From positions 1 through 37,701 of the forward strand of contig JAFTGE010000007.1 of assembly GCA_017458085.1 (NCBI GenBank): a stretch of 37,701 nucleotides of DNA. The letters are read 5' to 3'. This DNA comes from Oscillospiraceae bacterium. Lineage in GTDB: Bacteria > Bacillota > Clostridia > Oscillospirales > Oscillospiraceae. Of this stretch, positions 1,543 through 32,249 are shown piece after piece. Positions within the stretch are counted from its first letter, which is position 1. The number at the start of each line of letters is the position of its first letter. A model generated the notes under the pieces. The model had not been told where the DNA came from and did not search any database. It saw only the letters and a program-made list of their open reading frames with translations. The position numbers and the translations under genes were made by a program.

Positions 1543-1565
1543 TTACCAAACGGAATCGCTATAAT
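1537..1565 (+). promoter_or_regulatory. promoter of the AAA+ ATPase gene
   Basis: TTGTAA (1537-1542), 17 bp spacer, TATAAT (1560-1565). The -35 box contains the stop codon of the preceding gene, so the two genes are packed together but separately transcribable. Confidence 0.65.
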
Positions 1566-1597
1566 AAAACAGTACGAAAGATAAAGGAGATGGCCCT

Positions 1598-3025
1598 ATG
1601 CCCACCACATGGACCCGCACCCCGGAGGAATTTCATAAAATTTACACCGCCAACACCGACGCGTTCTATCGTCTGGGCGGCTCATCCATGGCCAAGGAGC
1701 TGGATGAGTTCATGACCAACTGCGCCCTGAGCCTGTGGAGCAAGGCCGGCGGCATTACCCAGCGCCATGTGGATATGGCAAACCAGCTCTATTCCCGGGG
1801 CCAGCCGAAGCCCTCGTGGATGCTCTGGTCCCTGACCGGCTCCGTGTGTGAGAGCGAGGTGTTCCTGCCCCCGGTGTTCTACTGGAACCTGGCCGAGAGC
1901 GACGCCAAGCGCGGCACCGAAGCCTCGCGCACCTTCATCCGCATGCTGACCAATATTCTGCTGTATCTGGCCGCGGTGGACGACGATGTGACCTATGAGG
2001 AGGCCGCCTTCATCACCGAGTGCACCGATAAGCTCAGCGCGATCTGCGACACCACCGGCGTGCGCAAGAGCAAGGAGGGGCTCAACCCCCTGGATTTTGT
2101 CACCAGCAGCGAGCCCAGCTTCATCGAAAAGCACAAGGTCCAGACCCAGACCTCCGGCGGCGAACAGAGCAGTGAGCAGAAGGAGGAGACCGCCGATAAG
2201 CCGGACTTCGACGAGCTCATGGCCCAGCTTGACGCGCTGGTTGGCCTGACGGAGGTCAAGAAGGATATCAAGAACCTGGTCAATCTCATGAAGGTGCGTA
2301 AGCTCCGGCAGGCCAATGACCTGCCTGTGCCGCCGATGAGCCTGCACATGGTGTTCATGGGCAACCCCGGCACCGGCAAGACCACGGTCGCCCGCATTGT
2401 CAGCGGCCTGTACGCCGCCATCGGCGTGCTCGAAAAGGGCCAGCTGGTGGAGGTTGACCGCTCCGGTCTCGTGGCGGGCTATGTGGGCCAGACGGCACTG
2501 AAGACGCAGGAGGTCATCAAGAAGGCCATCGGCGGCGTGCTGTTCATCGACGAGGCCTATTCCCTCTCCTCCGGCGGCGAGAACGACTTCGGCCGCGAGG
2601 CCATCGAGACCATCCTCAAGGCCATGGAGGATCACCGCGACGAGCTGATCGTCATTGTGGCGGGCTACACTGGACCGATGGAGAAATTCCTCAGCTCTAA
2701 CCCCGGTCTGGAATCGCGCTTCAACAAATACTTCTTCTTCCCCGATTACGATGGGGAGCAGCTGATGGCGATCTTCCGCAAGCAGTGTGAGAAGAACGGT
2801 TATACGCTGACCGAGGACGCGGAGAAGGCGGCGGTGGCAATGTTCACGGAGCTCTACGAGAACCGCAACGACAACTTCGGCAACGGCCGCGATGTGCGCA
2901 ACTGCTTTGAGGATATGATCGTGCGCCAGTCCAACCGTGTGGCAAAGCTGGAGGCGCCCACCAAGGAGGATCTGATGGCCGTGCTGCCGGAGGATCTGGA
3001 GGAAGAGGACGAGGACAAAGAATAA
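1598..3025 (+). CDS. AAA+ ATPase, SpoVK/CbbX-like, with N-terminal helical extension
   Basis: 475 aa. The C-terminal 270 residues are an AAA+ module of the CbbX/SpoVK group: Walker A GNPGTGKTT at about 255-263, Walker B VLFIDEAYS at 314-322, sensor-1 region IVIVAGY near 351, an arginine-finger candidate in LESRFNKYFF (about 371-380), and a sensor-2 type GNGRDVRN near 428. Residues 1-190 are a mostly helical domain, possibly TerB-like, followed by a charged linker; B. subtilis SpoVK (about 320 aa) lacks this extension. ATG 1598 follows AAAGGAG. The end is acidic (EDLEEEDEDKE). Context with a spore-lytic type gene fits a sporulation role, but the substrate is unknown. Confidence 0.8.
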   Translation: MPTTWTRTPEEFHKIYTANTDAFYRLGGSSMAKELDEFMTNCALSLWSKAGGITQRHVDMANQLYSRGQPKPSWMLWSLTGSVCESEVFLPPVFYWNLAESDAKRGTEASRTFIRMLTNILLYLAAVDDDVTYEEAAFITECTDKLSAICDTTGVRKSKEGLNPLDFVTSSEPSFIEKHKVQTQTSGGEQSSEQKEETADKPDFDELMAQLDALVGLTEVKKDIKNLVNLMKVRKLRQANDLPVPPMSLHMVFMGNPGTGKTTVARIVSGLYAAIGVLEKGQLVEVDRSGLVAGYVGQTALKTQEVIKKAIGGVLFIDEAYSLSSGGENDFGREAIETILKAMEDHRDELIVIVAGYTGPMEKFLSSNPGLESRFNKYFFFPDYDGEQLMAIFRKQCEKNGYTLTEDAEKAAVAMFTELYENRNDNFGNGRDVRNCFEDMIVRQSNRVAKLEAPTKEDLMAVLPEDLEEEDEDKE

Positions 3026-3037
3026 AAGACTGAACGG

Positions 3038-3260
3038 GGCTGTGAAAGAAGTCCGAAGCTGGATGTAGGGGCTGACGCCCTCGGCAGCCCGCGCAGCACA
3101 AAGAAAAATGATAGGGAAGTCTCCGGCGAAAACGGTAAAATGTCCGAATTCGCCGGAGATTGCTGTTTTATTTTGTTTCTCCTGCCGGGCCGCCGAGGGC
3201 GTCGGCCCCTACAAACTAGTGTTTAAGCTGGTTCTTTGTAAATCGACTTTTTCACAGTCT
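3038..3260. repeat. nested inverted-repeat element, MITE-like
   Basis: Three concentric inverted repeats in a gene-free stretch. Outer arms: GGCTGTGAAAGAAGTC (3038-3053) against GACTTTTTCACAGTC (3245-3259), one mismatch and one gap. Middle arms: 21 bp at 3065-3085 and 3192-3212, one mismatch, continuing inward with partial pairing to about 37 bp. Inner arms: TCTCCGGCGAA (3120-3130) against TTCGCCGGAGA (3149-3159), perfect. No credible gene lies inside. Such palindromic non-coding elements are typical of non-autonomous mobile repeats. No clear target-site duplication was found, and copy number in the genome is unknown. Confidence 0.7.
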
Positions 3261-3294
3261 CTTTTTATCTTAACATTTTCTTCTGAAAAAAGAC

Positions 3295-3323
3295 TTGACA
3301 GAACGCCTCCTTTGTGTTATTGT
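3295..3323 (+). promoter_or_regulatory. promoter of the GntR-ABC operon
   Basis: Consensus TTGACA (3295-3300), 17 bp spacer, TATTGT (3318-3323). The -10 box lies inside the left arm of the palindrome at 3306-3355. Confidence 0.7.
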
Positions 3324-3355
3324 ACTAATCGCTTAATACAATAACACAAAGGAGG
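3306..3355. promoter_or_regulatory. 50-bp palindromic operator over -10 box and ribosome site
   Basis: Arms 3306-3324 and 3337-3355 are perfect 19-bp inverted repeats (left arm begins CCTCCTTTGTGTTATTG). With one mismatch the symmetry continues inward to 3328/3333, leaving a 4-bp centre. The left arm carries the -10 box and the right arm ends in the GGAGG ribosome site. With a start point near 3330 only the right arm would be transcribed, so the symmetry should act as a DNA operator rather than as an RNA hairpin. The natural ligand is the GntR protein encoded immediately downstream. Confidence 0.7.
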
Positions 3356-3362
3356 TGCTGGT

Positions 3363-3737
3363 TTGAAATGGCAGTTTGACAACGACATGCCCATCTACAC
3401 CCAGTTGGTGGGGCAGATCAAGTTCGCCATCGTCTCCGGTGCGCTTTTGCCCGGCTCACGGATGATGACGGTGCGGGATCTGGCGCTGGAGGCGGGGGTC
3501 AACCCCAACACCATGCAGCGCGCTTTGCAGCAGCTGGAGCGGGAGGGCCTGGTCTATTCCCAGCGCAGCAGCGGCCGCTTCGTCACCGAGGACGTGGGCG
3601 TGATCGACCGGGCCAAGGCGGCGCTGGCAGCGGAGCATATCCGGCGCTTTCGCGCATCCATGGGCAGCCTCGGCTACAGCCGGGAGGAAATGATTCAGCT
3701 GCTTGAGGGCAGCGGTGAGGAGGAAGAGAATGGATAA
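3363..3737 (+). CDS. GntR-family regulator, YtrA type
   Basis: 124 aa, the size of YtrA-subfamily GntR regulators: an N-terminal winged helix-turn-helix (PIYTQLVGQIKFAIVSGALL ... RDLALEAGVNPNTMQRALQQLEREGLV, about 10-65) and a short helical tail instead of a large effector domain. The start is TTG at 3363, 7 bp after GGAGG; the only nearby ATG (3368) is in another frame. The family normally represses its own operon with a linked ABC transporter. The stop overlaps the start of the ATPase gene, so the two are translationally coupled. The large palindrome at 3306-3355 is the probable autoregulatory operator. Confidence 0.85.
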   Translation: MKWQFDNDMPIYTQLVGQIKFAIVSGALLPGSRMMTVRDLALEAGVNPNTMQRALQQLEREGLVYSQRSSGRFVTEDVGVIDRAKAALAAEHIRRFRASMGSLGYSREEMIQLLEGSGEEEENG

Positions 3738-20219: not shown

Positions 20220-21749
20220 TTATTTGTCTTCGCGCAGATACTGGCGGGCGTCCTTGATAAAGCTGGCGATGATCAGGATGATGACCAGCGCGATGGGGAA
20301 GGCCGCGATGATCGAGACGGTTTGCAGGTTGTTCATCGAGCCCTCGGAGAAGATCAGCGCGATGGGCAGCAGGATCAGCGCGATAGCCCAGAACAGCTTC
20401 ATGCGGGAGCTGGCCTCCTGATCCCGCTCGATCTGCTTGTAGCTGTAGGCCGAGGCCACCAGTGTAATGGAGTCGAAGGAGGTGGCATAAAAGGCGATCA
20501 TGGAGAAGATGATCAGCACCAGCACGATCTGATAGGCGGGCAGGTTGGAGATCACGGCGATGACCGTCTGGTACAGATTTCCGCAGGACTCGTAAAAGGC
20601 GATGGCGTCGAAGCGGCCGGTCATCTGCAGGCCGAGTCCGTAGTTGCCGAGGATGATAAACGAGATGAGCGTGCTGGCCACGCCGAAGATATAGGCGCCC
20701 AGGATGACCTGCTTGACGGTGCGGCCGCGGCTGATGCTGCCCATGAAGAAGGGCGCGGCCACGCACCAGACCATCCAGTAGGCCCAGTAGAAGATCGTCC
20801 AGTTCTGCGGGAAGCTGGAGGAACGCAGCGCGTCGGTCCAGGTGCTGAGCACAATGAAGTTCTGCACCATGTTGCCCAGGGCGGAAAAGCCGGTCTCGAC
20901 GATGTATTTGGCCTGGCCGCCGAAGATCAGCACAAACAACAGCAGCGCCCCGAAAATGTACATGCAGACATTGGCAAGCCACGAAACACCCTTGATGCCG
21001 CGCATGACGCAGACCGTGTAGACAACGCAGGTGACGACCAGAATGCCGATGGTGACAAACTTTGAGTCCGGCAGACCCAGCATGTGCGTCAGCGACAGGG
21101 ACAGCAGCGGCGTCGCCACGGAGAAGGTGGTGGCGGTGCCGGCGATGAGCGCGATCACGGCCAGCACGTCAATGATTTTGCCGGGCAGCTTGTCGGTCTT
21201 ATCGCCCAAAATGGGGCGGCAGGCCTCGGAGTATTTCTGCTTGTGGCGGCCGCGCACATGCAGCATGAAGCCGAAGCAGGCCGCCAGGGTTGCGTAAAAA
21301 CTCCAGGGGATGGGGCCCCAGTGGAACAGCGGGTAGGTAGAGGCCCAGTCCTGAATGGAGCCGAGCTCGGCCACGTGCGGCTCCTGCGCATAGTAGATCC
21401 ACTCGCACAAAGAGTAGAACAGAATGTCCGCGGCCAGACCGCAGGTGAACACCATCGCACCCCAGGTGAAGAAGCCGTACTGCGGTTTCTCGCCGGGCTT
21501 GCCCAGGGTGATTTTGCCCAGGTCGGAAAAGGCAATGTACAGGGAGACGACCAGGGTCCCCAGGCCAACCAGCAGATAGTAGGTGCCGAACTCATCGCCC
21601 AGGAAGGTGCGGATGGCGGACAGTGCGTTGGTGGAGCCGTCCGGGTCGATCACGAAGAAGGCACACAGCACCAGCACGATGCCAAAGGGGATAAAGGTCG
21701 TCGCGGGGTCAATGTTGCGCAGGGTATGGGGATTTTTTCTCTCGTTCAT
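20220..21749 (-). CDS. BCCT-family transporter (betaine/choline/carnitine)
   Basis: 509 aa with about 12 membrane segments. The family signature is seen around NWTIFYWAYWMVWCVAAPFF followed by MGSISRGRTVKQVI, the aromatic box region and cytoplasmic loop of BCCT carriers. These carriers import quaternary amines such as choline, betaine or carnitine, by ion symport or exchange. Start 21749 was chosen because AAAGGAGG precedes it; the upstream GTG would include that site. It lies 18 bp behind the LicC-LicA-type gene in one operon, so choline is the best substrate guess. Confidence 0.9.
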   Translation of the reverse strand: MNERKNPHTLRNIDPATTFIPFGIVLVLCAFFVIDPDGSTNALSAIRTFLGDEFGTYYLLVGLGTLVVSLYIAFSDLGKITLGKPGEKPQYGFFTWGAMVFTCGLAADILFYSLCEWIYYAQEPHVAELGSIQDWASTYPLFHWGPIPWSFYATLAACFGFMLHVRGRHKQKYSEACRPILGDKTDKLPGKIIDVLAVIALIAGTATTFSVATPLLSLSLTHMLGLPDSKFVTIGILVVTCVVYTVCVMRGIKGVSWLANVCMYIFGALLLFVLIFGGQAKYIVETGFSALGNMVQNFIVLSTWTDALRSSSFPQNWTIFYWAYWMVWCVAAPFFMGSISRGRTVKQVILGAYIFGVASTLISFIILGNYGLGLQMTGRFDAIAFYESCGNLYQTVIAVISNLPAYQIVLVLIIFSMIAFYATSFDSITLVASAYSYKQIERDQEASSRMKLFWAIALILLPIALIFSEGSMNNLQTVSIIAAFPIALVIILIIASFIKDARQYLREDK

Positions 21750-21767
21750 GGGGCCTCCTTTCACTCG

Positions 21768-23540
21768 TTACAGGCTGAGGCCCTCCGCCTCCATCAGCTC
21801 GCGGGCCAGCTTATAGTATTCCTTGGCGTAGCGGTACTGCCGCAGGGCGTAGTCGCCAAACTCCACGCCCAGCGCGCGCTTGTACTCGCACCAGTTGCTC
21901 CACAGCAGGCCGCAGGTCGCGACGTAGCAGTAGATCTTGATGCGGGTTTCAATGGAGCAGGCATCTTCAAAGTAGAGATCGATCAGGTGGTCGATCTGCT
22001 TGCGGTCATAGGCCGAGTAGATGCAGAACATCGCAATGTCCACATGGGGGTCCTGCAGGCCGGCGTATTCCCAGTCCGTCAGCTGCAGCAGCTCCGTGCC
22101 GTCCGGCCCCTGATAGAACAGGAAGTTGTCGGGCACGGCGTCGATGTGGGTCAGGCAGCGGGTCTCAACATGGGCGTCGATGTAGGGCCGGAGGGAGAAG
22201 ATATTCTCCTGCGTCTTGGCGTGATCCTTGAAGATCGAGGGCAGCTCACCCCAGAGCTTCTGGTAGTTGAGGATCTCACCCCAGATATCAAAATCATGCG
22301 GCACCTGTAGCGCCATCTCGTGGAACTGGCGCAGAAGCTTCATGCAGCGGTGCAGGTCGTCTTCGCTCTGCGGGTCGCAGTTTCTGACGCCGTCGAGGAA
22401 GGCGGTGATCTTGTAGCCGGTTTCGGGGTTAATGTATACCGGGTCGTCGCACAGGCCGCGGCCCTCAAGCGCCTCAAAAACGGCGGCCTCGTGGTAGCGG
22501 TCGACCAGCTCCTCGGTGCCCTCGCCGGGGATGCGCATGATGTACTTCTTTCCCCGGCAGGTGAAGCGGAAGGAGCGGTTGGTCATGCCCTTTTTCAGTA
22601 CGTCGATCTCCTTGACCTCGTTGGGCGTAACGCCCAGCACCTCCGCAATGACGGCAATCACGTCCGAATGCAGATGGGTCGAGCCGCTGTCCAGCTCACG
22701 CAGCTGCTCAAAGGTGTTGATGTTGAAGGCGTCGTCCGGGCCCAGTACCCGCGCGTAGACAAACATGCGGTCGCTGTCGCGCAGGGTCTTCTCCCAGCGG
22801 GCGTCCTCATATTTGCGGCTGCGGTCCATCATCACCAGCTGGCCGCGCACCAGCACCGCCTGCTCCTCGGAGAGGTACGCCGCGCCGAGAATGGCGTTGC
22901 CCGCCTCGTCCTCTGGAATGTAGACCAGCTCCTGCTTGCGGTTGACGCGGATGGCGCTGTCGATGTCGTGGAGGCTGGAGACCATGAACCAGGAATACAG
23001 CTCGTGATGCCGGAAGGGGTTCTCCTTAAACCACAGGTCGCCGGGTACTACGTAGGTGTTGGAGACCTCGTGGGCAATCAGGGCCAGGGAGTGCAGATTG
23101 TTGCGCCCGGCGTAGTCGGTGTTGAGCACCAGCTCCACGCCGAACTCGTCGATCAGATACTCAAAGCGCTCCATCATAAAGCCCACGACCACATAGATGT
23201 CCTTGATGCCGGCCTCGTTGAGCTGGCGGATCAGCCGCTCGATGAGCACCTCGCCCTTGACCTCCAGCAGGGCCTTGGGCGTCTCCATGCCGATGGGGGC
23301 CATGCGCATGCCGTAGCCGGCGGCGAGAATCACCGCGTTGCGGGGCCGGTGCTGCTCAAACTCCGCCATGGCCTTCTCCGTGGGGGCGTTGTGAATGTCA
23401 AGATACCCGTTGAGCACCAGACGCCGCAGGGAACGGTTGATGATGCCGAGGGAAAAGCCGGTGGCCTCCGACAGCTCCCGCTGACTGACATAGGGTACGT
23501 CTCTCAGATATTGCAAAATGTCCGCTTCGTGTCTGTTCAT
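21768..23540 (-). CDS. fusion: winged helix + choline-phosphate cytidylyltransferase (LicC) + choline kinase (LicA)
   Basis: 590 aa with three domains. Residues 1-50: winged helix-turn-helix (YVSQRELSEATGFSLGIINR, then SLRRLVLNGYLD). About 65-300: nucleotidyltransferase with NAVILAAGYGMRMAPIGMET (68-87) and LicC-like YVVVGFMMERFEYLIDEFGV. About 305-590: choline kinase/APH fold with KKGMTNRSFRF, IMRIPGEGTEELVDRY, catalytic loop LTHIDAVPDNF (463-473) and LTDWEYAGLQD (497-507). Together they would phosphorylate choline and activate it to CDP-choline for decoration of surface polymers. ATG 23540 follows GGGAG; longer starts run into the promoter. The DNA-binding domain suggests that the enzyme also regulates its operon. 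No LicD transferase gene is in the window. Confidence 0.85.
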   Translation of the reverse strand: MNRHEADILQYLRDVPYVSQRELSEATGFSLGIINRSLRRLVLNGYLDIHNAPTEKAMAEFEQHRPRNAVILAAGYGMRMAPIGMETPKALLEVKGEVLIERLIRQLNEAGIKDIYVVVGFMMERFEYLIDEFGVELVLNTDYAGRNNLHSLALIAHEVSNTYVVPGDLWFKENPFRHHELYSWFMVSSLHDIDSAIRVNRKQELVYIPEDEAGNAILGAAYLSEEQAVLVRGQLVMMDRSRKYEDARWEKTLRDSDRMFVYARVLGPDDAFNINTFEQLRELDSGSTHLHSDVIAVIAEVLGVTPNEVKEIDVLKKGMTNRSFRFTCRGKKYIMRIPGEGTEELVDRYHEAAVFEALEGRGLCDDPVYINPETGYKITAFLDGVRNCDPQSEDDLHRCMKLLRQFHEMALQVPHDFDIWGEILNYQKLWGELPSIFKDHAKTQENIFSLRPYIDAHVETRCLTHIDAVPDNFLFYQGPDGTELLQLTDWEYAGLQDPHVDIAMFCIYSAYDRKQIDHLIDLYFEDACSIETRIKIYCYVATCGLLWSNWCEYKRALGVEFGDYALRQYRYAKEYYKLARELMEAEGLSL

Positions 23541-23555
23541 AAGCACACTCCCGTG

Positions 23556-23616
23556 ACGACATAACAAATCGTTATCGTCCCATAAAAATTCAAAAACGCG
23601 AATCTGGCAGATTTCG
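23556..23616. promoter_or_regulatory. inverted repeats in the leader of the choline operon
   Basis: Two symmetries: GACGACATAAC (23556-23566) against GTTATCGTC (23571-23579), and AATCTG-G-CAGATT within 23599-23616. Both lie downstream of the predicted start point (about 23621) and before the ATG, so they could be RNA hairpins or operators. Confidence 0.35.
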
Positions 23617-23627
23617 TGAACAAGGCC

Positions 23628-23656
23628 AGTATAACACACTGACTATAAAATTGCAA
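23628..23656 (-). promoter_or_regulatory. promoter of the choline operon
   Basis: Minus strand TTGCAA (23656-23651), 17 bp spacer, TATACT (23633-23628). Confidence 0.7.
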
Positions 23657-23695
23657 CAATTTCTTTAAATATTGCCGCGCAAAATTGTACAACTT
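23648..23695. promoter_or_regulatory. two similar palindromes between divergent promoters
   Basis: AAATTG-CAA-CAATTT (23648-23662) overlaps the -35 box of the choline operon; AAATTGTACAACTT (23682-23695) lies further out, with a perfect TTGTACAA core. Their likeness suggests two binding sites for one regulator, possibly the winged-helix domain of the fusion protein. Confidence 0.4.
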
Positions 23696-23740
23696 GACAA
23701 GAATGTGGATTTATGTCTAAGTTTGTAAGTGACGCCGGGC

Positions 23741-23769
23741 TTGATTTCCAGGGGCGTTCGTGGTATGAT
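23741..23769 (+). promoter_or_regulatory. promoter of the phosphodiesterase gene
   Basis: TTGATT (23741-23746), 17 bp spacer, TATGAT (23764-23769) preceded by TGG. Confidence 0.65.
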
Positions 23770-23816
23770 TTAACAGGCAAATTCGGACAAACATTTGATG
23801 AAGGAGTACCAAAACC

Positions 23817-24554
23817 ATGAAAATTCTGGGACATCGCGGCTATTCCGGCAAGTATCCTGAAAACACCATGTTATCCTTCCAGAAGGCGATCGACGCGGGC
23901 GCCGACGGCATTGAGCTGGACGTGCACGCTACGAAAGACGGCGCGCTGGTCGTCATTCATGACGAGACTGTCGACCGCACGACCGACGGCACCGGCGCGA
24001 TCTTTGATCTGACCCTGGACGAGATCAAAGCCCTTAACGCGAACCTGCGCTTCCCTGAGTACGGCCCGCAGGCCGTCCCCACCTTTGAGGAGTACTGCGC
24101 CTGGGCCGCCGAAAACGGGGTCTATACCAATGTGGAGATCAAGACCGACAACACCTGCTATCCCGACCTGGAGAAGAAGGTCTGGGATGTTATCGTCAAG
24201 TACGGTCTGGAGGACAAGGTGATCTTCTCCTCCTTTAACCATGTGAGCATGCTGCACATGCGCGCCTTCCTGCCGGCGTCTGTCCCGGTGGGCGCTCTGG
24301 TCTGGATCGAGAGCGGTGTGCGTGTGCTGCCGGGCCGCTTCTGCAAGGAGGCTGGATTCCAGGCCTACCATCCGGAGACCAAAATGCTCAATGAGAGCAA
24401 TATGAAGGATCTGAAGGATAACGGCATTCAGGTCAACGTCTGGTCTGTGGACGATGCGGAGTCGCTCAAGAAGCTCTACGATTTCGGCTGCGACGCGATC
24501 ATCACCGACTATCCCCTGGAGGCGCAGGACTGGCTCCGCGCCGCGAAGGAATAA
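23817..24554 (+). CDS. glycerophosphodiester phosphodiesterase, cytoplasmic (UgpQ-like)
   Basis: 245 aa GDPD domain with ILGHRGYSGKYPENTMLSFQ at the N-terminus, the metal-site motif GADGIELDVHATKDGALVVI followed by HDETVDRTTDGTG, and a C-terminal VNVWSVDD. There is no signal peptide, so it acts inside the cell, hydrolysing glycerophosphodiesters to glycerol-3-phosphate and an alcohol such as choline. It is divergent from the choline uptake/activation operon and convergent with an MFS transporter, which makes glycerophosphocholine a plausible substrate (inference). AAGGAG precedes the ATG. Confidence 0.92.
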   Translation: MKILGHRGYSGKYPENTMLSFQKAIDAGADGIELDVHATKDGALVVIHDETVDRTTDGTGAIFDLTLDEIKALNANLRFPEYGPQAVPTFEEYCAWAAENGVYTNVEIKTDNTCYPDLEKKVWDVIVKYGLEDKVIFSSFNHVSMLHMRAFLPASVPVGALVWIESGVRVLPGRFCKEAGFQAYHPETKMLNESNMKDLKDNGIQVNVWSVDDAESLKKLYDFGCDAIITDYPLEAQDWLRAAKE

Positions 24555-24619: not shown

Positions 24620-25909
24620 TCAGGCTTCAGCAGCCTTGGCCTCTGCCAGGGCCTTCTTGTTCATGCGCATGAGCACGAAGGCGGCGATAAAGCCGATGGC
24701 GGACAGGACGGCCATGGCGATGAAGCAGTTGTGGTAGCCCTTGAGCGGGGTAGCGGTGCCGGCGTACTTGTCAACCATGTTGCCGGAGAGGGTGTACAGG
24801 AACATCTCAGGCGCGTAGGTGACCAGAGAGATCACGCCGGAGGCGGTGCCGGCCAGACGCTTGGGAACCAGAACCTCATCGATGGTGGAGAAGTACAGGG
24901 CCTTGATGCCGTACAGGCACAGACCGTAGACGATGAAGTTGACGATGACCAGGGAGACGCCTGCGCCGTTGGTCGGGATCAGGACGTACAGGGAGGCGAA
25001 GACAGCCATGCCGATGAAGGCGTACTTCATGAACTTGATGCGGCTGCCCATCTTGTCGGCCACGAAGCCGGCGACGAAGGCGCCAACCATCATCATGAAG
25101 TAGGTACGCACGACGCTGAGGTTGGCAACCGTGGTGGCGCTCATGCCGAAGCCCTCGGAGAGGTAGCCGGTGATGTAGCCGTGGAAGATCAGGGCGGAGT
25201 AGTTGCAGATGCCGAGCACGCCGCACAGCCACACGCGGGGCATTTTCGCGACTTCCAGGAAGTCCTTCATCTTCAGGCCGCTGTCGGCCTTGGCAGCCTT
25301 GTCGGTGCCGGTGGGCTTGTCGTTCTCCATGAAGATCCAGGCCAGGATGCCCGCGACCGCCAGGAGAATGCTGTAGTAGAGGATGGCGTTCTTCATGCCG
25401 CCGATCTCGTCGGCAGCCCAGCCGAACACGGCCACGGAGCCGAACGCCGCCAGCGTACCGATCAGGCCGCGGCCGCCTTCCAGCAGACCGAACAGACGGC
25501 CCTGTTCATCGCCGTCGCCCAGACGGTTGATGGACTTGACCATGGCAGCCCAGAAGGTGAACACGGTGGTGATGGCGAAGATGGCGTGGATGACGACCAG
25601 CCAGATAAAGCCGGGCATGGTCCAGAACCAGAGGCCGGCGATCGCGGTGCCGAAGCAGGACACGACGATCAGGGATTTGCAGCTAAACTTATCTGCCAGC
25701 ACGCCGCCGGGGAAGTAGCAGATGAAGTTGACGATGCCGTAAGCACTCATCAAAATACCCAGCTGGGTTTTGGTGGCGCCGGTCGCCTGCTGCAGGGGGA
25801 TCATGTAGGTCTCGCGCAGGTAGGGCAGCTTGGTGATCAGGCCGCCTGCAAATGCGACGATGATCAGCGTAAGCCATTTTGTCACATTTGACTTTTTGGT
25901 GTTTGCCAT
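24620..25909 (-). CDS. MFS transporter
   Basis: 429 aa with 12 membrane segments in two halves. The loop between helices 2 and 3 carries GGVLADKFSCKSL, the MFS motif A position. Start 25909 is supported by AGGAGGAG. The substrate cannot be read from the sequence. The neighbouring phosphodiesterase suggests a glycerophosphodiester or related organophosphate (as in GlpT/UhpT relatives), but an organic-acid carrier is equally possible. It has its own strong promoter. Confidence 0.8.
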   Translation of the reverse strand: MANTKKSNVTKWLTLIIVAFAGGLITKLPYLRETYMIPLQQATGATKTQLGILMSAYGIVNFICYFPGGVLADKFSCKSLIVVSCFGTAIAGLWFWTMPGFIWLVVIHAIFAITTVFTFWAAMVKSINRLGDGDEQGRLFGLLEGGRGLIGTLAAFGSVAVFGWAADEIGGMKNAILYYSILLAVAGILAWIFMENDKPTGTDKAAKADSGLKMKDFLEVAKMPRVWLCGVLGICNYSALIFHGYITGYLSEGFGMSATTVANLSVVRTYFMMMVGAFVAGFVADKMGSRIKFMKYAFIGMAVFASLYVLIPTNGAGVSLVIVNFIVYGLCLYGIKALYFSTIDEVLVPKRLAGTASGVISLVTYAPEMFLYTLSGNMVDKYAGTATPLKGYHNCFIAMAVLSAIGFIAAFVLMRMNKKALAEAKAAEA

Positions 25910-25977
25910 GTTGGCTCCTCCTGATAATAAAAATTGCATAGATTTGAGGGATATGCAGCCCTTGCTTTTGTGTATTA

Positions 25978-26131: not shown

Positions 26132-27352
26132 TTACAGGAGCCCACCGCATAGAAAGAAGTCCTCCACTGCCAGCAGACCGGCCGCGCAGCTTTCCAATTG
26201 ATGATTATAGCGACTCTTTTCAATGACGACGCTGTGCCTTGCGTCCACACCCTCCTGCATTTCGCTGAGCAGGCGCGAGAGGAAGTAGGGGTGGTCAAAC
26301 ATATGCCCGTAGAGCAAGATCCGTCCGGGATCGGCCAGATAGATGACCGCCTTGAGTGCGCTGCCCAGAGCGATCACGGCCCGGTCTACAATGGCGGCCA
26401 CGGCCGCGTCGCCGCCCTGGGCGGCGGAGAGCACATCGTCGATGGTCAGCGCCCCCGGCGCCTTCTCCTGACACAGACGCCAAAGCAGCGGCGTCCCGTC
26501 TTGGGAGAGGAGCGCCAGCGCGTCCTCGCGGATGGCGGCGGGGGAGGCAATGGTCTCAAGACACCCGCATTTGCCGCAGGAGCAGGGCTTACCGCCGCGA
26601 CGGATCACGGGGATGTGTCCAAGCTCGGCACACTGGCGGCTGACGCCTTGCCAGATCTGCCCATTTACGGACAGTGAAGCGCCGATGCCGTACTCACAGC
26701 GCAGAAAGAACTGGGAATCGGGCGCGCTGTCCCGGTCGAAGAAGTTTTGTGCGGCAAAAAGAGCGCGCACATTGTTGGCCATGTGGACGGGAAGCCCGGT
26801 CAGTGCCTCCAGGCGGTCACAGAGGGGGAAGTCCGCCTCGTCCAGCGCGCCGAAGCTGTCGGTCAGCGTGCGGCCGTCCTGCGAGAGAATGCCGCGCACG
26901 GCGACGCCGAGGCCAAGGATCTCCTCCCGCGTTAAGCCGTGCTCGGCGGCAAGAGCGCGCAGCGTCTCGGCCAACATGCGCACCGTGTTCTCCGCCGGGG
27001 CGCGGGCCTCCAGCTCAAACTGGCGCGAAAAGATGACCGTCCCGTCCAGCCGGACAGCGGAGACATTCGCCTGCCGGAGGTTCAAAAGCACCCCCAGCGC
27101 GCAGCGGCGGCCCGGCTCCAGCGCCACCAGGATCTCCCGCCGTCCGGCGCTGCCGCTGGCAACGGCGCCTTCCTCCCGGAGCAGACCCTCCCGGAGCAGC
27201 TCGGCGACGATCTTGGTGATGGCCGCGGGCGTCAGACTCGTCGTCTCGGCCAGCCTTTTGCGGGACATGGCGCCCTTCTCCCGCAGAATGCGCAGGACCG
27301 CGCTGCGGTTGGTGCGCTTGACATCCATCATGTTGTCGCCCGTATAGGACAT
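26132..27352 (-). CDS. ROK-family transcriptional repressor (NagC/XylR type)
   Basis: 406 aa. N-terminal winged helix (RTNRSAVLRILREKGAMSRK, then RLAETTSLTPAAITKIVAEL), followed by a ROK domain with the zinc motif CSCGKCGCLE (about 261-270) and GHIPV. NagC/XylR-type members bind palindromic operators and release them on binding a sugar or sugar phosphate. It is the last gene of the operon, 57 bp after the dehydrogenase. Start choice is uncertain: ATG 27352 or ATG 27331, neither with a strong ribosome site. The palindrome at 30761-30789 is its probable operator. Confidence 0.88.
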   Translation of the reverse strand: MSYTGDNMMDVKRTNRSAVLRILREKGAMSRKRLAETTSLTPAAITKIVAELLREGLLREEGAVASGSAGRREILVALEPGRRCALGVLLNLRQANVSAVRLDGTVIFSRQFELEARAPAENTVRMLAETLRALAAEHGLTREEILGLGVAVRGILSQDGRTLTDSFGALDEADFPLCDRLEALTGLPVHMANNVRALFAAQNFFDRDSAPDSQFFLRCEYGIGASLSVNGQIWQGVSRQCAELGHIPVIRRGGKPCSCGKCGCLETIASPAAIREDALALLSQDGTPLLWRLCQEKAPGALTIDDVLSAAQGGDAAVAAIVDRAVIALGSALKAVIYLADPGRILLYGHMFDHPYFLSRLLSEMQEGVDARHSVVIEKSRYNHQLESCAAGLLAVEDFFLCGGLL

Positions 27353-27408
27353 GGGATCACGCTCATTTCCGATAGAGATCAGGGACCGGCCCTGGGGGAT
27401 GAAGGCGC

Positions 27409-28506
27409 TTAGCGCAGCTGCTCAAAGAAAGCGCGCATGGCGGCCGCGTCCATGGGGACGGGGTTAAAGCTCATGAGCACATGCGCGGCGCTCTCGCGGG
27501 CGAGGACGTCAATGTCCACATGGTCGCCCAGATCAGCAAGCCTTGTGCGCAGTCCGGCCATCTGCTTATAGGCCGCGATCCGGTCGGCAAGCTCCGCTGT
27601 GCCGCTCAAGCCCACGCGGCGGCACAGCTCCTCCAGCCGGGCGTCAGCGTTGAGCCGGACAAAGTGGTCCAGCGTGAAGGCGCAGGCCTCGCCGTGGGGC
27701 AGGTGGTAATGCTCACTTAAAGGGTAGCTTGCCGCGTGGCAGCCGGCGGTACGGGGCTGGGAGAAGGCCAGGCCCGCGATGGTGGAGGCCAGGGCCATAT
27801 TGGCCCGCGCCTCGCGGTTTTCGCCGTCGCGGAAGGCGGTCTCCAGATTGCCCAGAATCAGGCGCACAGCCTCCACGGCCATAATGTCGCAGATAGGCTG
27901 GTGGTTGATATTCCAGTAGCCCTCCAGCGCGTGGGCCATGGCGTCGAGACCGGTGTTCATGGTGGTGCGCGGCGGCACGGACAGCATGAGCAGCGGGTCG
28001 ACGATGGCGGCCTTCGGCATGAAGGCCGGCTGGTTGATCGAACGCTTTTCGTCGCCGTGGCTGATGACGGCGACTTGGGTCACCTCGCTGCCGGTCCCGG
28101 CGGTGGTGGGCACGGCGATGACGGCCAGGGGATCGGAGGGCAGGGGCAGCTCGCCCCGGTAGTAGGCAAGGGGATCGCCGTCGCCGCGGGCAATGGCCGC
28201 GGCAAACTTGGCCGTGTCGAGTGAGCTGCCGCCGCCGACACCGATGACGGCGTCCGCGTCAAACGCGCGGGCCAGCTTCGCGGTTTCGATCGCGCCGGAA
28301 AGCTGCGGGTTCTGCTCCACCTCGCCGTACACGGCGGCAAGGCGCGGCTCGGTTTCCATCAGCGCCCTGGCTGCCGGGGCAAAGTGCCGGCCGCAGGCGA
28401 TGACGCAGCGCTGCAGCCCCAGCTCGTCGAGCACGGCGCCGAGCGCTTCAAACTTTCCCTCTCCAAACCAGATTTTGACCGGCTGGGCATAGACAAATTC
28501 ATTCAC
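27409..28506 (-). CDS. iron-type (group III) alcohol/aldehyde dehydrogenase
   Basis: 365 aa. Cofactor loop VIGVGGGSSLDTAK, then TTAGTGSEVTQVAV and the metal-site segments TGLDAMAHALEGY and SEHYHLPHGEACA, with the His ligands of the Fe-ADH family. It probably reduces an aldehyde with NAD(P)H. The start is GTG 28506 within the end of the isomerase gene (8-bp overlap, GAGGAGG upstream); a longer frame to 28728 would be a shadow of that gene. Metal-dependent sulfoacetaldehyde reductases (SarD, TauF) are in this superfamily, which matters for the pathway proposed here, but many other substrates are possible. Confidence 0.88.
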   Translation of the reverse strand: MNEFVYAQPVKIWFGEGKFEALGAVLDELGLQRCVIACGRHFAPAARALMETEPRLAAVYGEVEQNPQLSGAIETAKLARAFDADAVIGVGGGSSLDTAKFAAAIARGDGDPLAYYRGELPLPSDPLAVIAVPTTAGTGSEVTQVAVISHGDEKRSINQPAFMPKAAIVDPLLMLSVPPRTTMNTGLDAMAHALEGYWNINHQPICDIMAVEAVRLILGNLETAFRDGENREARANMALASTIAGLAFSQPRTAGCHAASYPLSEHYHLPHGEACAFTLDHFVRLNADARLEELCRRVGLSGTAELADRIAAYKQMAGLRTRLADLGDHVDIDVLARESAAHVLMSFNPVPMDAAAMRAFFEQLR

Positions 28507-28975
28507 CGTAAATTCCCTCCTCGATGGCATCGATCTGCCTGGCAAATTTGTGCATGTTCTCCGCACGCCAGTCCTCCAGATCCTGGCACCAGTCGGTGGC
28601 CAGGAAGGTCCTGACCATCTCCACGGCCATTTCGGGGCCGACGATCCAGCCGCCCATGCACAGGACGTTGGCGTTGTTAATGGCGCGGGCCATTTTCGCC
28701 GCGTACACACCCTCGCAGGCGACGGCATACACGCCCTTGAACTTGTTGGCTACCACGCACATCCCGGCGCCGGTGCCGCAGATCAAAACGGCGCGGTCAT
28801 AGCATCCCTCCTGTACCAGCGGGGCCACCTCGGAGGCGACCTGATAGTAAGGGTGGACATCGTTTAAATCCACGGTGCCGAGGTCGTCAAAGTCCGCGCC
28901 GCATTCCGTCAGATAGGCTTTGACGGCCTCCTTGACCGGGAAGCCGGATTTATCGCTGCCGATGGCAATTTTCAT
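28499..28975 (-). CDS. RpiB/LacAB-family sugar-phosphate isomerase
   Basis: 158 aa, full length for RpiB. MKIAIGSDKSGFPVKEAVKA aligns with the RpiB start (usual GSDHAG; here the His is Lys), and the catalytic Cys lies in LICGTGAGMCVVANK. The family interconverts aldose and ketose phosphates (ribose-5-P/ribulose-5-P and relatives, also tetrose phosphates). The His-to-Lys change in the first motif suggests a substrate other than ribose-5-phosphate. It is coupled to the dehydrogenase by an 8-bp overlap and follows the transketolase genes by 18 bp. Confidence 0.85.
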   Translation of the reverse strand: MKIAIGSDKSGFPVKEAVKAYLTECGADFDDLGTVDLNDVHPYYQVASEVAPLVQEGCYDRAVLICGTGAGMCVVANKFKGVYAVACEGVYAAKMARAINNANVLCMGGWIVGPEMAVEMVRTFLATDWCQDLEDWRAENMHKFARQIDAIEEGIYGE

Positions 28976-28993
28976 GGGTAACTCCTCCGAATC

Positions 28994-29917
28994 TTATTTT
29001 AATGCGATTGCTTTTTTCGCGCTTGTTACAATGTTCTCCACCGTCAGACCCAACGCCTGGCGCAGATAGGGCATCATGCCCACCTCACCGAAGCGGTCCT
29101 GTACGCCGACGGCGCAGGCGGGGATCTTCTCCGCGGCCAAGGCTTCCAGCACCGCCGCGTGCAGGCCGCCGATGACGTTGTGGTTCTCCACGGTCAGCAC
29201 CGCGCCGGTCTTTCTCGCGGAGGCGGTTACCGTCTCGCGGTCGATGGGCTTGATGGTGTGGACGTTGACGATCTCGGCGTCGATCCCTTCCGCGGCAAGG
29301 AGCTCTCCCGCGCCCAGCACGTCCTTTGTCAGAAAGCCGGAAACAAAGATGCTTACATCCCGGCCTTCCTTTATGACGTCAGCCTTGAACAGGTCAAAGG
29401 TATAGTCGTCGCGGAAGATCCGGGGCAGCTCCTTGCGGAACAGCCGCACATACACGCAGCCGTCGTAGGCGTTCAGCACCGGCATGGCCGCGCGCAGCTG
29501 CACCTCGTCGGCGGGCTCAAAGATCACCACACCCGGGATCGAGCGCAGCACGCCGATGTCCTCCATGCTCATGTGGGTGCCGCCGTTGAGCTCGGCGGAG
29601 ATACCGGGATCGGTGCCGACGATCTTGACGTTACGCTTGGCATAGGCGATGGAAATGGCGATCTGGTCGCAGATGCGGCGCGTGGCAAAGGGCGTGAAGC
29701 TCTCGATCCAGGGCTTAAAGCCGTAGCTGGAAAGCCCCGCCGCAAGGGAGGCCATGTTCTGCTCGGCCACACCGCAGTCGAACATCTGCTTCGGGAAACG
29801 CTCATATAATCCGCGGGTGCCGCTGGCCTTGGCCAGATCCGCGTCGAGGACGACCACATGGCGGTCAGCCTCCATCAGCTTTGCCAGGCATTCGGCGTAA
29901 GCAGCTCTCATTTCCAT
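28994..29917 (-). CDS. transketolase, C-terminal subunit
   Basis: 307 aa: the pyrimidine-binding domain (MFDCGVAEQNMASLAAGLSS with the catalytic Glu) and the C-terminal transketolase domain (NVHTIKPIDRETV, VENHNVIGGL). With the N-terminal subunit it forms a split transketolase that moves C2 units between sugars. ATG 29917 overlaps the end of the N-subunit gene by 10 bp. The only ribosome-site-like sequence is an unbroken run of eight G (29926-29933). Confidence 0.92.
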   Translation of the reverse strand: MEMRAAYAECLAKLMEADRHVVVLDADLAKASGTRGLYERFPKQMFDCGVAEQNMASLAAGLSSYGFKPWIESFTPFATRRICDQIAISIAYAKRNVKIVGTDPGISAELNGGTHMSMEDIGVLRSIPGVVIFEPADEVQLRAAMPVLNAYDGCVYVRLFRKELPRIFRDDYTFDLFKADVIKEGRDVSIFVSGFLTKDVLGAGELLAAEGIDAEIVNVHTIKPIDRETVTASARKTGAVLTVENHNVIGGLHAAVLEALAAEKIPACAVGVQDRFGEVGMMPYLRQALGLTVENIVTSAKKAIALK

Positions 29918-30747
29918 TGCTTATTCCCCCCCCTGATTGCACGGATGGCGGCCATGGCCTTCTCTTCCGGGACGGGGCAGTTATGATTGCCCGCGCCCAG
30001 CGCCACGACCCACGGCACGCCGCAGCCTTTGACCGTGTTGAGGATCACCATGGTGGGCTTGCCGCTGCCGCGGTTGGCTTTGGCCATGACGACCGCCGTG
30101 AGCACCTGGTCGACATCGTTGCCGTCCTGCACCTCGATCACGTTCCAGCCAAAGGCCTTCCATTTCAGGGCCAGAGGCTCGATGTCGTTGACCTGCCGGA
30201 CGGTCCCGTCGATCTGGAGCTTGTTATAGTCGGTAAAGCCGATGAGGTTATCCAGACCCTTGGCCGCGGCGAACATGGCCGCCTCCCAGATCTGACCCTC
30301 CTGACTCTCCCCGTCGCCGATCAGGGTGTAGATCGTGGCCCCGTCCTCCTCGAGTCGGGAGCCGAGGGCGGCGCCCACCGCGCAGGAGAAGCCCTGCCCC
30401 AGGGAGCCGGTGGTCATGTCGATGCCCGGGGTGCGGTTCATGTCGCAGTGGCTGGGCAGATCGGTGCCGCCCTGGTTGAGCGTCAGCAGCAGGGAGCGGT
30501 CAAAGTAGCCGCGGTTGGCAAGCGCGGCGTAGACCGCGGGACCGGCGTGCCCCTTGGAGCAGATAAAGCGGTCGCGCCCGGCCATCTGCGGGTCCTTGGG
30601 GTCAATATTCATCTGTGAGAAATACAGCACCGCCAGCAGCTCCGTCACCGAAAGGCAGCCGCCGATGTGACCTACGCCGAGGTGCCCGATGCTTTGCAGA
30701 ATGTCGCAGCGCAGCGCCTTGCAGACTTCCCTGAGATCGTAGTTCAA
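29908..30747 (-). CDS. transketolase, N-terminal subunit
   Basis: 279 aa thiamine-diphosphate domain: ICSKGHAGPAVYAAL near 62, TTGSLGQGFSCAVGAALGSR near 112, and the TPP motif LIGDGESQEGQIWEAAMF (142-159) with the closing Asn in FTDYNK. The start is TTG 30747, 8 bp after AGGAGG; no better ATG exists. It is the first gene of the operon transketolase N, transketolase C, RpiB-type isomerase, Fe-ADH, ROK repressor. The 3' end contains the G8 run. Confidence 0.92.
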   Translation of the reverse strand: MNYDLREVCKALRCDILQSIGHLGVGHIGGCLSVTELLAVLYFSQMNIDPKDPQMAGRDRFICSKGHAGPAVYAALANRGYFDRSLLLTLNQGGTDLPSHCDMNRTPGIDMTTGSLGQGFSCAVGAALGSRLEEDGATIYTLIGDGESQEGQIWEAAMFAAAKGLDNLIGFTDYNKLQIDGTVRQVNDIEPLALKWKAFGWNVIEVQDGNDVDQVLTAVVMAKANRGSGKPTMVILNTVKGCGVPWVVALGAGNHNCPVPEEKAMAAIRAIRGGNKQWK

Positions 30748-30760
30748 GCTTGCGTCCTCC

Positions 30761-30789
30761 TTATTTGATTAAAAGGATTAATCAAATAA
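30761..30789. promoter_or_regulatory. palindromic operator, probable ROK-repressor site
   Basis: TTATTTGATTAA (30761-30772), 5-bp centre, TTAATCAAATAA (30778-30789): perfect 12-bp arms. It starts directly after the -10 box and covers the predicted start point, so a bound protein would block initiation. AT-rich palindromes ending in TTATTT/AAATAA are typical of NagC/Mlc-type ROK regulators. Confidence 0.75.
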
Positions 30790-30818
30790 ATGATAATCCC
30801 GGCGCTGCTGCTTGTCAA
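30790..30818 (-). promoter_or_regulatory. promoter of the transketolase operon
   Basis: Minus strand TTGACA (30818-30813), 17 bp spacer, TATCAT (30795-30790). Confidence 0.85.
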
Positions 30819-30852
30819 TCCCCCGCGCAAAAGAAAGCGCGGGGGATTGACA
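30813..30852. repeat. perfect 16-bp inverted repeat holding both divergent -35 boxes
   Basis: TGTCAATCCCCCGCGC (30813-30828) and GCGCGGGGGATTGACA (30837-30852), 8-bp spacer AAAAGAAA. Each arm ends in the TTGACA of one of the two divergent promoters, so the promoters are mirror images around one centre. It may bind a regulator, act as a hairpin isolating the two transcripts, or both. Confidence 0.8.
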
Positions 30853-30875
30853 GTGCGGGAAGGGAAGATTATGAT
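30847..30875 (+). promoter_or_regulatory. promoter of the isomerase-like gene
   Basis: TTGACA (30847-30852), 17 bp spacer, TATGAT (30870-30875). Just downstream TTAATCAA (30887-30894) matches a half-site of the operator at 30761-30789, which suggests shared control. Confidence 0.85.
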
Positions 30876-30908
30876 AATTTACACCGTTAATCAATGTGAG
30901 GGATCGAT

Positions 30909-32249
30909 ATGAAAGAATTCGTGCCCGTGTATGTTCCGGTCGGCGTGCCGACCTTCCATCTGGAGAGCGCCCAGGATCAGTTCGACCGTTCGGTGAGCAT
31001 GCTCCGCTCGGTGGACGAGCGCTTTGTCTGCCCGGATCAGATGCTGCTGACGCTGGACGCGCTGCGTGCTTTTCTGGACACGGTGCAGCCCGATTTGATC
31101 GTGTTTCAAAACCTGACCTTCGCCAACGCCGCTTATATGGCCGAGGTGCTGCGCCGCTTTGACTGTCCGCTGCTGCTGTGGACGCTGCGCGAGCCGGTCA
31201 TCGACGGCGGCCGCCTGCGCCTCAACTCCCTGACCGGGGCCTATTCCGCGGCCAACACGCTCCGCGCTTTTGATCACCGGCCCTTCGGCTATGTTTTCGG
31301 CGCACCCGGGGAGGACGCCGTCACCGCCGCCGTGACCGCCTGGGTCAGGGCCGCCGCGGTCAAGCACGCGATGCGCTCGCTGCGCATGGCCGCCGTGGGC
31401 CATACGCCCCAGGGCTTCGGCTTCGGCCGCGCGCTGGACAGCGAGCTGATGCAGGTCTTCGGCGTGGAGCTGGAGGCTATCGAGGCGCGGGAGCTGATCG
31501 ATATGGCCAAGCGCTATACGGACGAGGAATGCGCCGACTATCTGCGCGAGACCGAGCAGGCCACCTGCGGCTTCGATAAGACCCCGGAGGCCAATCGCCT
31601 GGATCACGCCCGGCTGTATAAGGCGTACACCGACTATGTCAAGTCCCACGGCATCGGCGCGCTGGCCTCCCGCTGCTGGCCGGATTTCTTCACCGCCTTC
31701 GGCACGCCCGTGTGCACGGTGCTGTCGCTTCTCAACGATCTGGGTGTGGCGGCGGCCTGCGAGGCGGATATCTACGGCGCCCTCTCCATGTGGGTGGGCA
31801 TGTTCCTGAGCGGAGAGCCTGTCTTCTTCGGGGACCCCGTCTCCCTTGACGAGGGGGAGAATACCGTCACCTTCTGGCACTGCGGGGCGGCGGCCTGTTC
31901 ACTGGCGCGGCACGATACCGGCGCGGTGGTGGGCGTGCACCCCAACCGTAAGATCGGCCCGGCCATGGACTTTGGGTGCGAGGCGTTTCCCGCGGCCACG
32001 ATCTTCCGCATCGGGCGCGAACCGGACGGCTCCTTCCGCTTTTTCATTGCCGAGGGCGAGGCGCTGGATAAGCCCAAGCAGTTTATCGGCACGTCCGTCG
32101 TTGTGCGCACCGACGCCGACAGCCGCCGGCTCGTGGAGCAGAGCGTGCGCGCCGGGTTTGAGCCGCACTTTGCGGTCATCAAGGGCCGCTGGGGTGACAG
32201 TCTCGCGGCGCTGGCCGAGATGCTCGGCTTCCCGGTGTGCCGCTATTAA
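30909..32249 (+). CDS. fucose/arabinose-isomerase-fold sugar isomerase
   Basis: 446 aa. The C-terminal half matches the L-fucose/L-arabinose isomerase superfamily: metal-ligand candidates Glu285 in ACEADIYGALS, Asp309 in FFGDP and His324 in VTFWHCGAAACSLA. The N-terminal half has the Rossmann-like PDLIVFQNLTFANAAYMAEV region (61-80). Its length is closer to short isomerase-family members than to FucI (about 590 aa), so it is probably not fucose isomerase itself. Sulfoquinovose isomerases are reported from this superfamily. It is divergent from the transketolase operon with mirror-image promoters. GAGGG precedes ATG 30909. Confidence 0.75.
   Translation: MKEFVPVYVPVGVPTFHLESAQDQFDRSVSMLRSVDERFVCPDQMLLTLDALRAFLDTVQPDLIVFQNLTFANAAYMAEVLRRFDCPLLLWTLREPVIDGGRLRLNSLTGAYSAANTLRAFDHRPFGYVFGAPGEDAVTAAVTAWVRAAAVKHAMRSLRMAAVGHTPQGFGFGRALDSELMQVFGVELEAIEARELIDMAKRYTDEECADYLRETEQATCGFDKTPEANRLDHARLYKAYTDYVKSHGIGALASRCWPDFFTAFGTPVCTVLSLLNDLGVAAACEADIYGALSMWVGMFLSGEPVFFGDPVSLDEGENTVTFWHCGAAACSLARHDTGAVVGVHPNRKIGPAMDFGCEAFPAATIFRIGREPDGSFRFFIAEGEALDKPKQFIGTSVVVRTDADSRRLVEQSVRAGFEPHFAVIKGRWGDSLAALAEMLGFPVCRY

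Follow-up and report, generated by a model that had tools for sequence, protein, structure and literature searches.

A very probable isethionate-forming sulfo-transketolase operon in an Oscillospiraceae genome whose YihQ-family glycosidase is unlinked and altered

The window examined here is the whole of contig JAFTGE010000007.1 (C88 in our numbering), a stretch of 37,701 bases from the genome of an Oscillospiraceae bacterium (GCA_017458085.1; 2.67 Mb, 135 contigs, 93.5% complete). At 26132-32249 it carries five minus-strand genes and one plus-strand gene in a divergent arrangement which, judged by their families and active-site residues, very probably encode the reductive, isethionate-forming sulfo-transketolase (sulfo-TK) pathway of sulfoquinovose (SQ) degradation. 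Gene identity, gene order, conservation and active-site residues were all observed directly. Two points deserve a second look: an accessory gene is missing from the operon, and the glycosidase of the genome is both unlinked and altered.

Sulfoquinovose, the sulfolipid sugar of plant leaves, ranks with the most abundant organosulfur compounds. Gut bacteria that respire sulfite and produce sulfide are fed by the isethionate derived from it (PMC11659671, PMC13219744). An earlier note, made from the sequence alone, had proposed this pathway and implied that it was new. The novelty did not stand, as the pathway has been published for Clostridium sp. MSTE9, Faecalicatena, Caproiciproducens and rumen Ca. 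Limivicinus (PMC11659671, PMC13219744, PMC9594981), the last of these an Oscillospiraceae reported to transcribe it on SQ (PMC13219744). The operon is a further carrier of a known pathway, already known in rumen Oscillospiraceae, and adds a carrier of the branch of sulfoglycolysis that uses four of the six carbons.

The six genes are all present and match the Pfam families expected of them:

26132-27352, minus strand: ROK-family transcriptional regulator, last gene of the operon (PF00480, 120 bits, with an N-terminal winged helix-turn-helix (HTH))
27409-28506, minus strand: Fe-type alcohol dehydrogenase (Fe-ADH), candidate SqwF (PF00465/PF25137; best PDB match 6JKO, E 1.3e-65)
28499-28975, minus strand: RpiB-type isomerase, candidate SqwI (PF02502, LacAB_rpiB, 141 bits; GSDKSG motif)
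28994-29917, minus strand: C-terminal subunit of a split transketolase (TktC), candidate SqwH (PF02779/PF02780, Transket_pyr and Transketolase_C; RAFDR motif)
29908-30747, minus strand: N-terminal, thiamine diphosphate (ThDP) subunit of the split transketolase (TktN), candidate SqwG (PF00456, Transketolase_N, 166 bits)
30909-32249, plus strand: fucose-isomerase-fold sugar isomerase of 446 aa, candidate SftI/SqvD (Fucose_iso_C 37 bits; NF048012 386.8 bits)

The minus-strand operon comprises TktN, TktC, the RpiB-type isomerase, Fe-ADH and ROK, and the divergent gene is the isomerase. These matches confirm the layout that had been read from the sequence. TktN, which has a TTG start with GGAGG upstream, overlaps TktC, and the RpiB stop overlaps the Fe-ADH start, most likely GTG 28506; mechanical open reading frame (ORF) listing gave 28728 for the latter, and database searches were made with a 344-aa form starting at 28443. 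The claim that the cluster lacks a sugar kinase also holds: none was seen, and the ROK protein, which carries a DNA-binding domain, falls well short of all the ROK-kinase cut-offs listed.

From these families we infer the substrate, the products and the export of isethionate by a transporter. SftI would convert sulfoquinovose to 6-deoxy-6-sulfofructose. SqwGH would then move a C2 ketol unit from sulfofructose to glyceraldehyde-3-phosphate, giving xylulose-5-phosphate and 4-deoxy-4-sulfoerythrose, which SqwI, the RpiB homologue, would isomerize to 4-deoxy-4-sulfoerythrulose. Removal of a second C2 unit by SqwGH would leave sulfoacetaldehyde, and SqwF, the Fe-ADH, would reduce this with NADH to isethionate.

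Relatives were drawn from a same-family sample of 300 genomes and a class sample of 391 genomes, and from public loci, these being the best 80 of 467 confirmed loci from a contig scan. At least seven of the 80 are presumably contigs already among the family-relative loci, and L110 and L116 come from one metagenome-assembled genome (MAG). Residues were counted only in ORFs covering more than 90% of the query (85% for out-of-family transketolase, RpiB, Fe-ADH and isomerase rows), at identities of at least 60% for TktC and SftI and at least 45% for Fe-ADH. The L155 transketolase (RAFNS) and the L152 Fe-ADH (DHLDHHH) fall outside the gene set and are listed, not counted.

The isomerase has a single NCBIfam match, the sulfoquinovose isomerase SftI (NF048012; 386.8 bits, E 1.2e-115, positions 5-441 of 443). 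Within the family sample 40 of 300 genomes have an isomerase match at E<=1e-20; 16, the present one included, exceed 300 bits, and the next best scores 186. The nearest named relatives are Oscillospiraceae and Ruminococcaceae MAGs. In a maximum-likelihood tree of 31 isomerases the window sequence falls in a 19-member clade (100/100), with a long-branch warning for the sequences outside it. The clade includes L152, L153 and L154, from other families of the class, to which the window isomerase is 63%, 61% and 55% identical. L152 and L153 are clusters of sulfo-transaldolase (sulfo-TAL) type, each with a YihQ-type GH31, an FSA-type transaldolase and an HIBADH-type reductase; L154, of the bifurcated type, adds an FSA-type transaldolase to the transketolase set. 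The candidate metal ligands E285, D309 and H420, which we take to be the positions expected for a FucI-type metal site, are invariant in a 15-row alignment and across all 81 sequences counted, that of the window among them. Searching solved structures by sequence found no relative of the isomerase (best E 0.086), and a search of viral contigs with it found none. Loci L160, L161, L162 and L049 have sulfo-TK-type sets, with GSDKSG RpiB, and an SftI-family isomerase about 25% identical to that of the window. Between clusters, the enzyme of the first step seems to have been swapped.

The motif reported for sulfofructose transketolases is RAFDR, in place of the RSFHR of phosphosugar transketolases (PMC11659671). 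The best PDB matches of the split transketolase are 6yak for TktN (E 3.6e-72) and the split transketolase 6yaj for TktC. Against 6yaj the phosphate-orienting His of TktC is Asp and Ser is Ala, giving the motif RAFDR. It recurs in 67 of 70 SqwH sequences (window included), the other three reading KSFDR, and also in the four more distant clusters L154, L160, L161 and L162, the last two near-identical. Three other split transketolase C subunits of the genome read RAFHR (L053), RNFMR (L054) and RAFDR (L052). The motif supports a sulfofructose transketolase role for the predicted SqwH without proving it.

The altered first motif of the RpiB-type isomerase, to which the earlier note had drawn attention, is real. 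GSDKSG replaces GSDH.G in all 67 RpiB sequences counted (window included), and the next residue is F in 65 and Y in two. In comparison with the solved RpiBs 3he8, 2vvr and 6fxs, the first-motif His has become Lys and the equivalent of His99 has become Ile; the Ile is present in 67 of 67 sequences and in the four distant clusters just named. In characterized RpiB the first-motif His contacts phosphate and His99/102 opens the furanose ring (PMC4783025, PMC3755991). Loss of the ring-opening His would be expected on chemical grounds, because 4-deoxy-4-sulfoerythrose has no C4 hydroxyl and cannot form a furanose ring. The residue signature of the candidate SqwI fits an acyclic C4 sulfosugar, as it would other acyclic C4 substrates. 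Two other RpiBs of the genome retain both His residues. A third, distant paralogue of the family (L174, 28% identical) has neither His and was left out of the controls. According to a 2022 review, SqwI activity had at that time no direct measurement (PMC9594981).

The best solved relative of the Fe-ADH, well ahead of the next (1e-43), is 6JKO, the sulfoacetaldehyde reductase BkTauF of Bifidobacterium kashiwanohense (PMC6616044). With the chain numbering shifted by 5 residues, as the alignment implies, the BkTauF active-site residues D192, Q196, F252, T257, H261, F265 and H275 correspond to D, H, F, T, H, Y and H in the window protein. All 58 SqwF sequences counted, that of the window among them, have this same set. 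The active sites are the same except for Q196H and F265Y, and both changes, Gln to His and Phe to Tyr, are reported in natural BkTauF homologues (PMC6616044). BkTauF has been proposed to act in taurine nitrogen assimilation (PMC6616044), unlike the sulfoglycolytic role suggested for the window enzyme. Against the NCBIfam SarD model the Fe-ADH scores 169 bits, below the cut-off of 700.

The arrangement is conserved. Of the 15 same-family relatives whose isomerase exceeds 300 bits, 13 have transketolase genes linked to it; of the exceptions, L041 breaks off immediately upstream of the isomerase gene and L033 has no transketolase within 14 kb. SftI and TktN lie on opposite strands in 78 of the 80 public loci, and the order Fe-ADH, RpiB, TktC, TktN, divergent SftI is complete in 56. 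Among the other 24, 15 reach a contig end, in L075 and L121 the ORF filter displaced TktN, and L087 extends 1.6 kb beyond RpiB with no Fe-ADH match. Linkage of the reductase to the operon is usual, not constant. In L092, L096, L100, L126 and L129/L042, SftI, TktN, TktC and RpiB are present and no Fe-ADH is nearby, despite room. The stretches fetched around the 80 public loci also contain EamA (52 loci), ROK (39), DUF4867 (31) and ABC binding-protein (18) genes, and a YihQ-family GH31, by best match, in 59 (31 canonical-like, 30 variant-like, two with both). The operon recurs near YihQ-type GH31, DUF4867 and sugar ABC genes. Together with the SftI family match, RAFDR, the BkTauF residues and the two His losses of SqwI, this recurrence bears out the match to the sulfo-TK enzyme set that had been claimed from the sequence.

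Likeness to the reductive sulfo-TK pathway of Clostridium sp. MSTE9 (PMC9594981, PMC12890257, PMC11659671) is drawn from published descriptions. The two have in common the enzyme families, a RAFDR split transketolase, an RpiB-family isomerase, an Fe-ADH reductase and the lack of a kinase. They differ in that the window cluster has no exporter gene, DUF4867 was not found in its genome, and its GH31 is on another contig and has altered contacts. The rumen Ca. Limivicinus and other Oscillospiraceae clusters (PMC13219744) represent the same pathway in rumen Clostridia; in contrast to many relatives, the window operon has no EamA gene. The bifurcated systems of Faecalicatena and Caproiciproducens (PMC11659671, PMC13219744) share SftI, SqwGHI and SqwF with the window, whose genome differs in having no PF00923 transaldolase match.

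Several observations weigh against the sulfo-TK assignment. The isomerase, at 387 bits, is under the NF048012 equivalog cut-off of 700 bits; the cut-off says little here, because no genome in either sample reached it (0/300 in the same family, 0/391 in the class). RAFDR is not unique, as the paralogue L052, in a cluster on contig C133 with neither SftI nor GH31, also has it, and for this reason RAFDR alone was rejected as proof of role. Five loci (L092, L096, L100, L126 and L129) continue for more than 5 kb beyond RpiB with no Fe-ADH match there, and L134 has SftI and, over 5.3 kb upstream, no transketolase. The EamA transporter gene of relatives is not in the window operon, and the best homologue that the genome offers has 22% identity. 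The mutarotase SqvB/SftX (DUF4867) belongs to the majority of sulfo-TK clusters (PMC9594981); no DUF4867 match was found in this 93.5%-complete genome, nor in any control genome. Finally, the GH31 of the genome lacks two sulfonate-contact residues, reading QQQWF and not QQRWY or KERWY.

Could the same chemistry act on another acidic sugar? The substrate might be a hexuronate, which ketol transfers would take to glyoxylate and on to glycolate, or another sulfosugar. Kinase-free transketolase, isomerase and alcohol dehydrogenase logic would work for any C6 acid, GPH symporters also transport hexuronides, and the Lys and Ile of RpiB do not tell sulfonate from carboxylate. Outside the SQ cluster, too, a second split transketolase reads RAFDR. 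The GH31 of this genome and 28 other non-redundant ones lack the sulfonate-contact Arg and Tyr and have new conserved basic residues. Set against this, SftI is a member of the sulfoquinovose isomerase family with 61-63% identity to the isomerases of transaldolase-type clusters, and the Fe-ADH active site matches a sulfoacetaldehyde reductase. The same operon lies near residue-checked QQRWY GH31s in 26 of the 80 public loci, and GH31s reading QQQWY, with the same Arg-to-Gln change, occur in two transaldolase/reductase clusters, L047 and L152. We consider another acidic sugar improbable.

Less probable still is that these are ordinary phosphosugar enzymes, a second pentose-phosphate-type split transketolase with an RpiB acting on ribose or allose phosphates. 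They do belong to the same Pfam families, and the isomerase passes the RpiB subfamily model TIGR00689 (119 vs 88 bits). However, the transketolase has lost the phosphate-orienting His to Asp, with Ser to Ala, relative to 6yaj, and the RpiB has lost its phosphate-contact and ring-opening His residues, both of which two other RpiBs of the genome keep. In addition, no kinase was seen, SftI is linked in 78 of 80 loci and a YihQ-family GH31 is nearby in 59 of 80. The pentose-phosphate role was rejected on the SqwH and SqwI residue changes and the within-genome controls. A further alternative is a bifurcated sulfo-TK/sulfo-TAL pathway of the Faecalicatena kind, in which SftI would supply both arms. 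It has in its favour that SftI shares the 19-member clade with isomerases of transaldolase-containing clusters, and was rejected as equally improbable for want of SftT, the genome having no PF00923 transaldolase match where the same search matched in 10 of 14 control genomes, an absence not proven at 93.5% completeness.

The earlier note had found the SQ glycosidase, the sulfonate importer and the exporter missing from the window. Part of this gap is now filled: a YihQ-family GH31 followed by a GPH-type symporter has been located elsewhere in the genome, the GH31 with altered contacts. This GH31, the only one that the genome yielded, is at 1531-3522 of locus L048, on contig C71, where it matches PRK10426 (YihQ) with 599.9 bits against a cut-off of 553. 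It is probably the enzyme that releases SQ. After it come the GPH-symporter homologue and a protein of 830 aa (L048:4964-7456) that matches no Pfam family and has homologues in L036/L099 and L047.

In canonical sulfoquinovosidases we take QQRWY or KERWY, at 262, 288, 301, 304 and 508 in E. coli numbering, to be the substrate-contact residues, and we assume likewise the identity of the catalytic Asp pair. Compared with sulfoquinovosidase structures 5ohs and 5ohy, the C71 GH31 has Gln for the contact Arg and Phe for the contact Tyr, and so reads QQQWF; the Asp pair is kept in it and in all GH31 sequences examined. After removal of those at least 99.5% identical, 71 GH31 sequences were reduced to 63, which divide into 29 QQQWF, 32 QQRWY and two QQQWY. 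About half of the non-redundant GH31s examined near these operons thus lack residues that are taken to mark a sulfoquinovosidase. Residue checking within just the 80 public loci, before redundancy removal, gave 27 QQQWF and 26 QQRWY genes. The QQQWF class has conserved basic residues of its own: R121 and H348 in 29 of 29 sequences and a basic residue at position 350 in 28 of 29 (numbering of the C71 protein). Carriers, which lie near sulfo-TK operons or in genomes that have one, are L048 itself, L035, L036, L039, L040, L042, L043, L044 and 21 more non-redundant sequences. The two QQQWY enzymes sit in the transaldolase and reductase clusters L047 and L152.

The QQQWF class is the least-explained part of the system. 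Species of Ca. Limivicinus that have yihQ in two copies are mentioned in PMC13219744, as are several clades of yihQ; the word "residue" is absent from the main text of that paper. An altered sulfonate-binding residue is described in another sulfoquinovosidase family, GH188 (PMC11465081). No description of the QQQWF variant was found among the titles or abstracts of the literature searched. Tentatively, and with the odds against it, QQQWF enzymes may be a second, unrecognised YihQ-family type that reads the sulfonate anew or releases a different acidic sugar. If the latter were true, sulfo-TK operons with QQQWF would process an additional substrate.

The exporter is an accessory feature of the pathway, separate from catalysis. 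In relatives an EamA gene, presumably the sulfonate exporter SqwE, lies between Fe-ADH and ROK in all 38 public loci holding both. It is present in 52 of the 58 public loci with Fe-ADH, and five of those without it, which also have no ROK match, have more than 6 kb of room. In the window Fe-ADH and ROK are only 56 bases apart with no EamA gene between. The genome has one TauE-type protein, on C62, unlinked to the operon. One further transporter gene adjoins the operon:

24620-25939, minus strand: major facilitator superfamily (MFS) transporter, membership of the operon uncertain (PF07690, 102 bits)

It shows weak similarity to organophosphate transporters. Of 60 genomes searched, the 59 others gave no match at E<=1e-60, and the 80 public loci have none either. 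The gap between it and ROK contains a terminator-like stem (11 such found against 6.1 expected) and a promoter-like stretch, TTGACA...TATAAA. In view of these, of the weak organophosphate-transporter similarity and of the glycerophosphodiesterase neighbour, it was rejected as a firm exporter. It could replace the exporter, or it could serve the neighbouring glycerophosphodiesterase (GDPD) and choline genes.

The 161-bp gap between TktN and the isomerase holds two outward-facing sigma-70-like promoters and a candidate operator:

30790-30818, minus strand: promoter of the transketolase operon, TTGACA-17-TATCAT (11/12)
30847-30875, plus strand: promoter of the isomerase gene, TTGACA-17-TATGAT (11/12)
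30813-30852, no strand: perfect 16-bp inverted repeat containing both -35 boxes (inverted-repeat scan)
30761-30789, no strand: candidate operator, a 12-bp inverted repeat TTATTTGATTAA-N5-TTAATCAAATAA, between the minus promoter and the TktN start
30887-30894, no strand: third TTAATCAA half-site, between the plus promoter and the isomerase start

The promoters had been described as mirror images, and they are: two TTGACA-17-TATxAT sites on opposite strands, each scoring 11/12. Six promoter-like sites of at least 9/12 were observed in the region against a shuffle mean of 2.1. The -35 boxes form the outer ends of the 16-bp inverted repeat, whose arms are C+G-rich; several relatives have shorter repeats around TTGTCAA/TTGACAA.

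The window holds three copies of TTAATCAA, every one of them in this gap. The half-site precedes SftI/TktN in 38 of the 80 public loci and the ABC binding-protein gene in 10 of 18, compared with 1.6% of 4000 random stretches. It was found upstream of none of 29 variant GH31, 31 canonical GH31, 52 EamA or 31 DUF4867 genes. A genome scan for the palindrome returned the window copy as exact and three more with two mismatches (control 1). Loci with a canonical GH31 have TTAATCAA more often (22/29) than those with the variant (6/28), loci with both classes being excluded. An operator shared with the GH31 variant was rejected, there being no TTAATCAA before any of the 29 variant genes and no copy on contig C71. 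The ROK protein is NagC/Mlc-like, yet under the NagC and Mlc cut-offs, and its homologues hold the same position in many relatives. It is likely a sulfosugar-responsive repressor, and would probably repress both divergent promoters through the TTAATCAA palindrome, with a ligand that we infer.

Eighteen of the 80 public loci have a ruminant host in the title, and many others have RUG isolate names, which presumably denote the rumen. The carrier is a gut-type bacterium, probably of ruminant source. A defence-gene search with four window proteins gave no match. A second cluster in the same genome, L163 (C133:1-20000), contains two split transketolase pairs, one of them RAFDR, with an RpiB and an Asp/Glu-racemase-like protein. 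It also has SDR and Zn-ADH dehydrogenases, a CoA-transferase III, a lactonase-type protein, an ABC transporter and a GntR regulator, and looks built for a non-phosphorylated sugar or acid. In the window itself, 20220-24554 is a choline module of a BCCT transporter, a glycerophosphodiesterase and an HTH/nucleotidyltransferase/choline-kinase fusion that we take to be LicC-LicA-like. The module suggests phosphocholine handling beside the sulfosugar operon.

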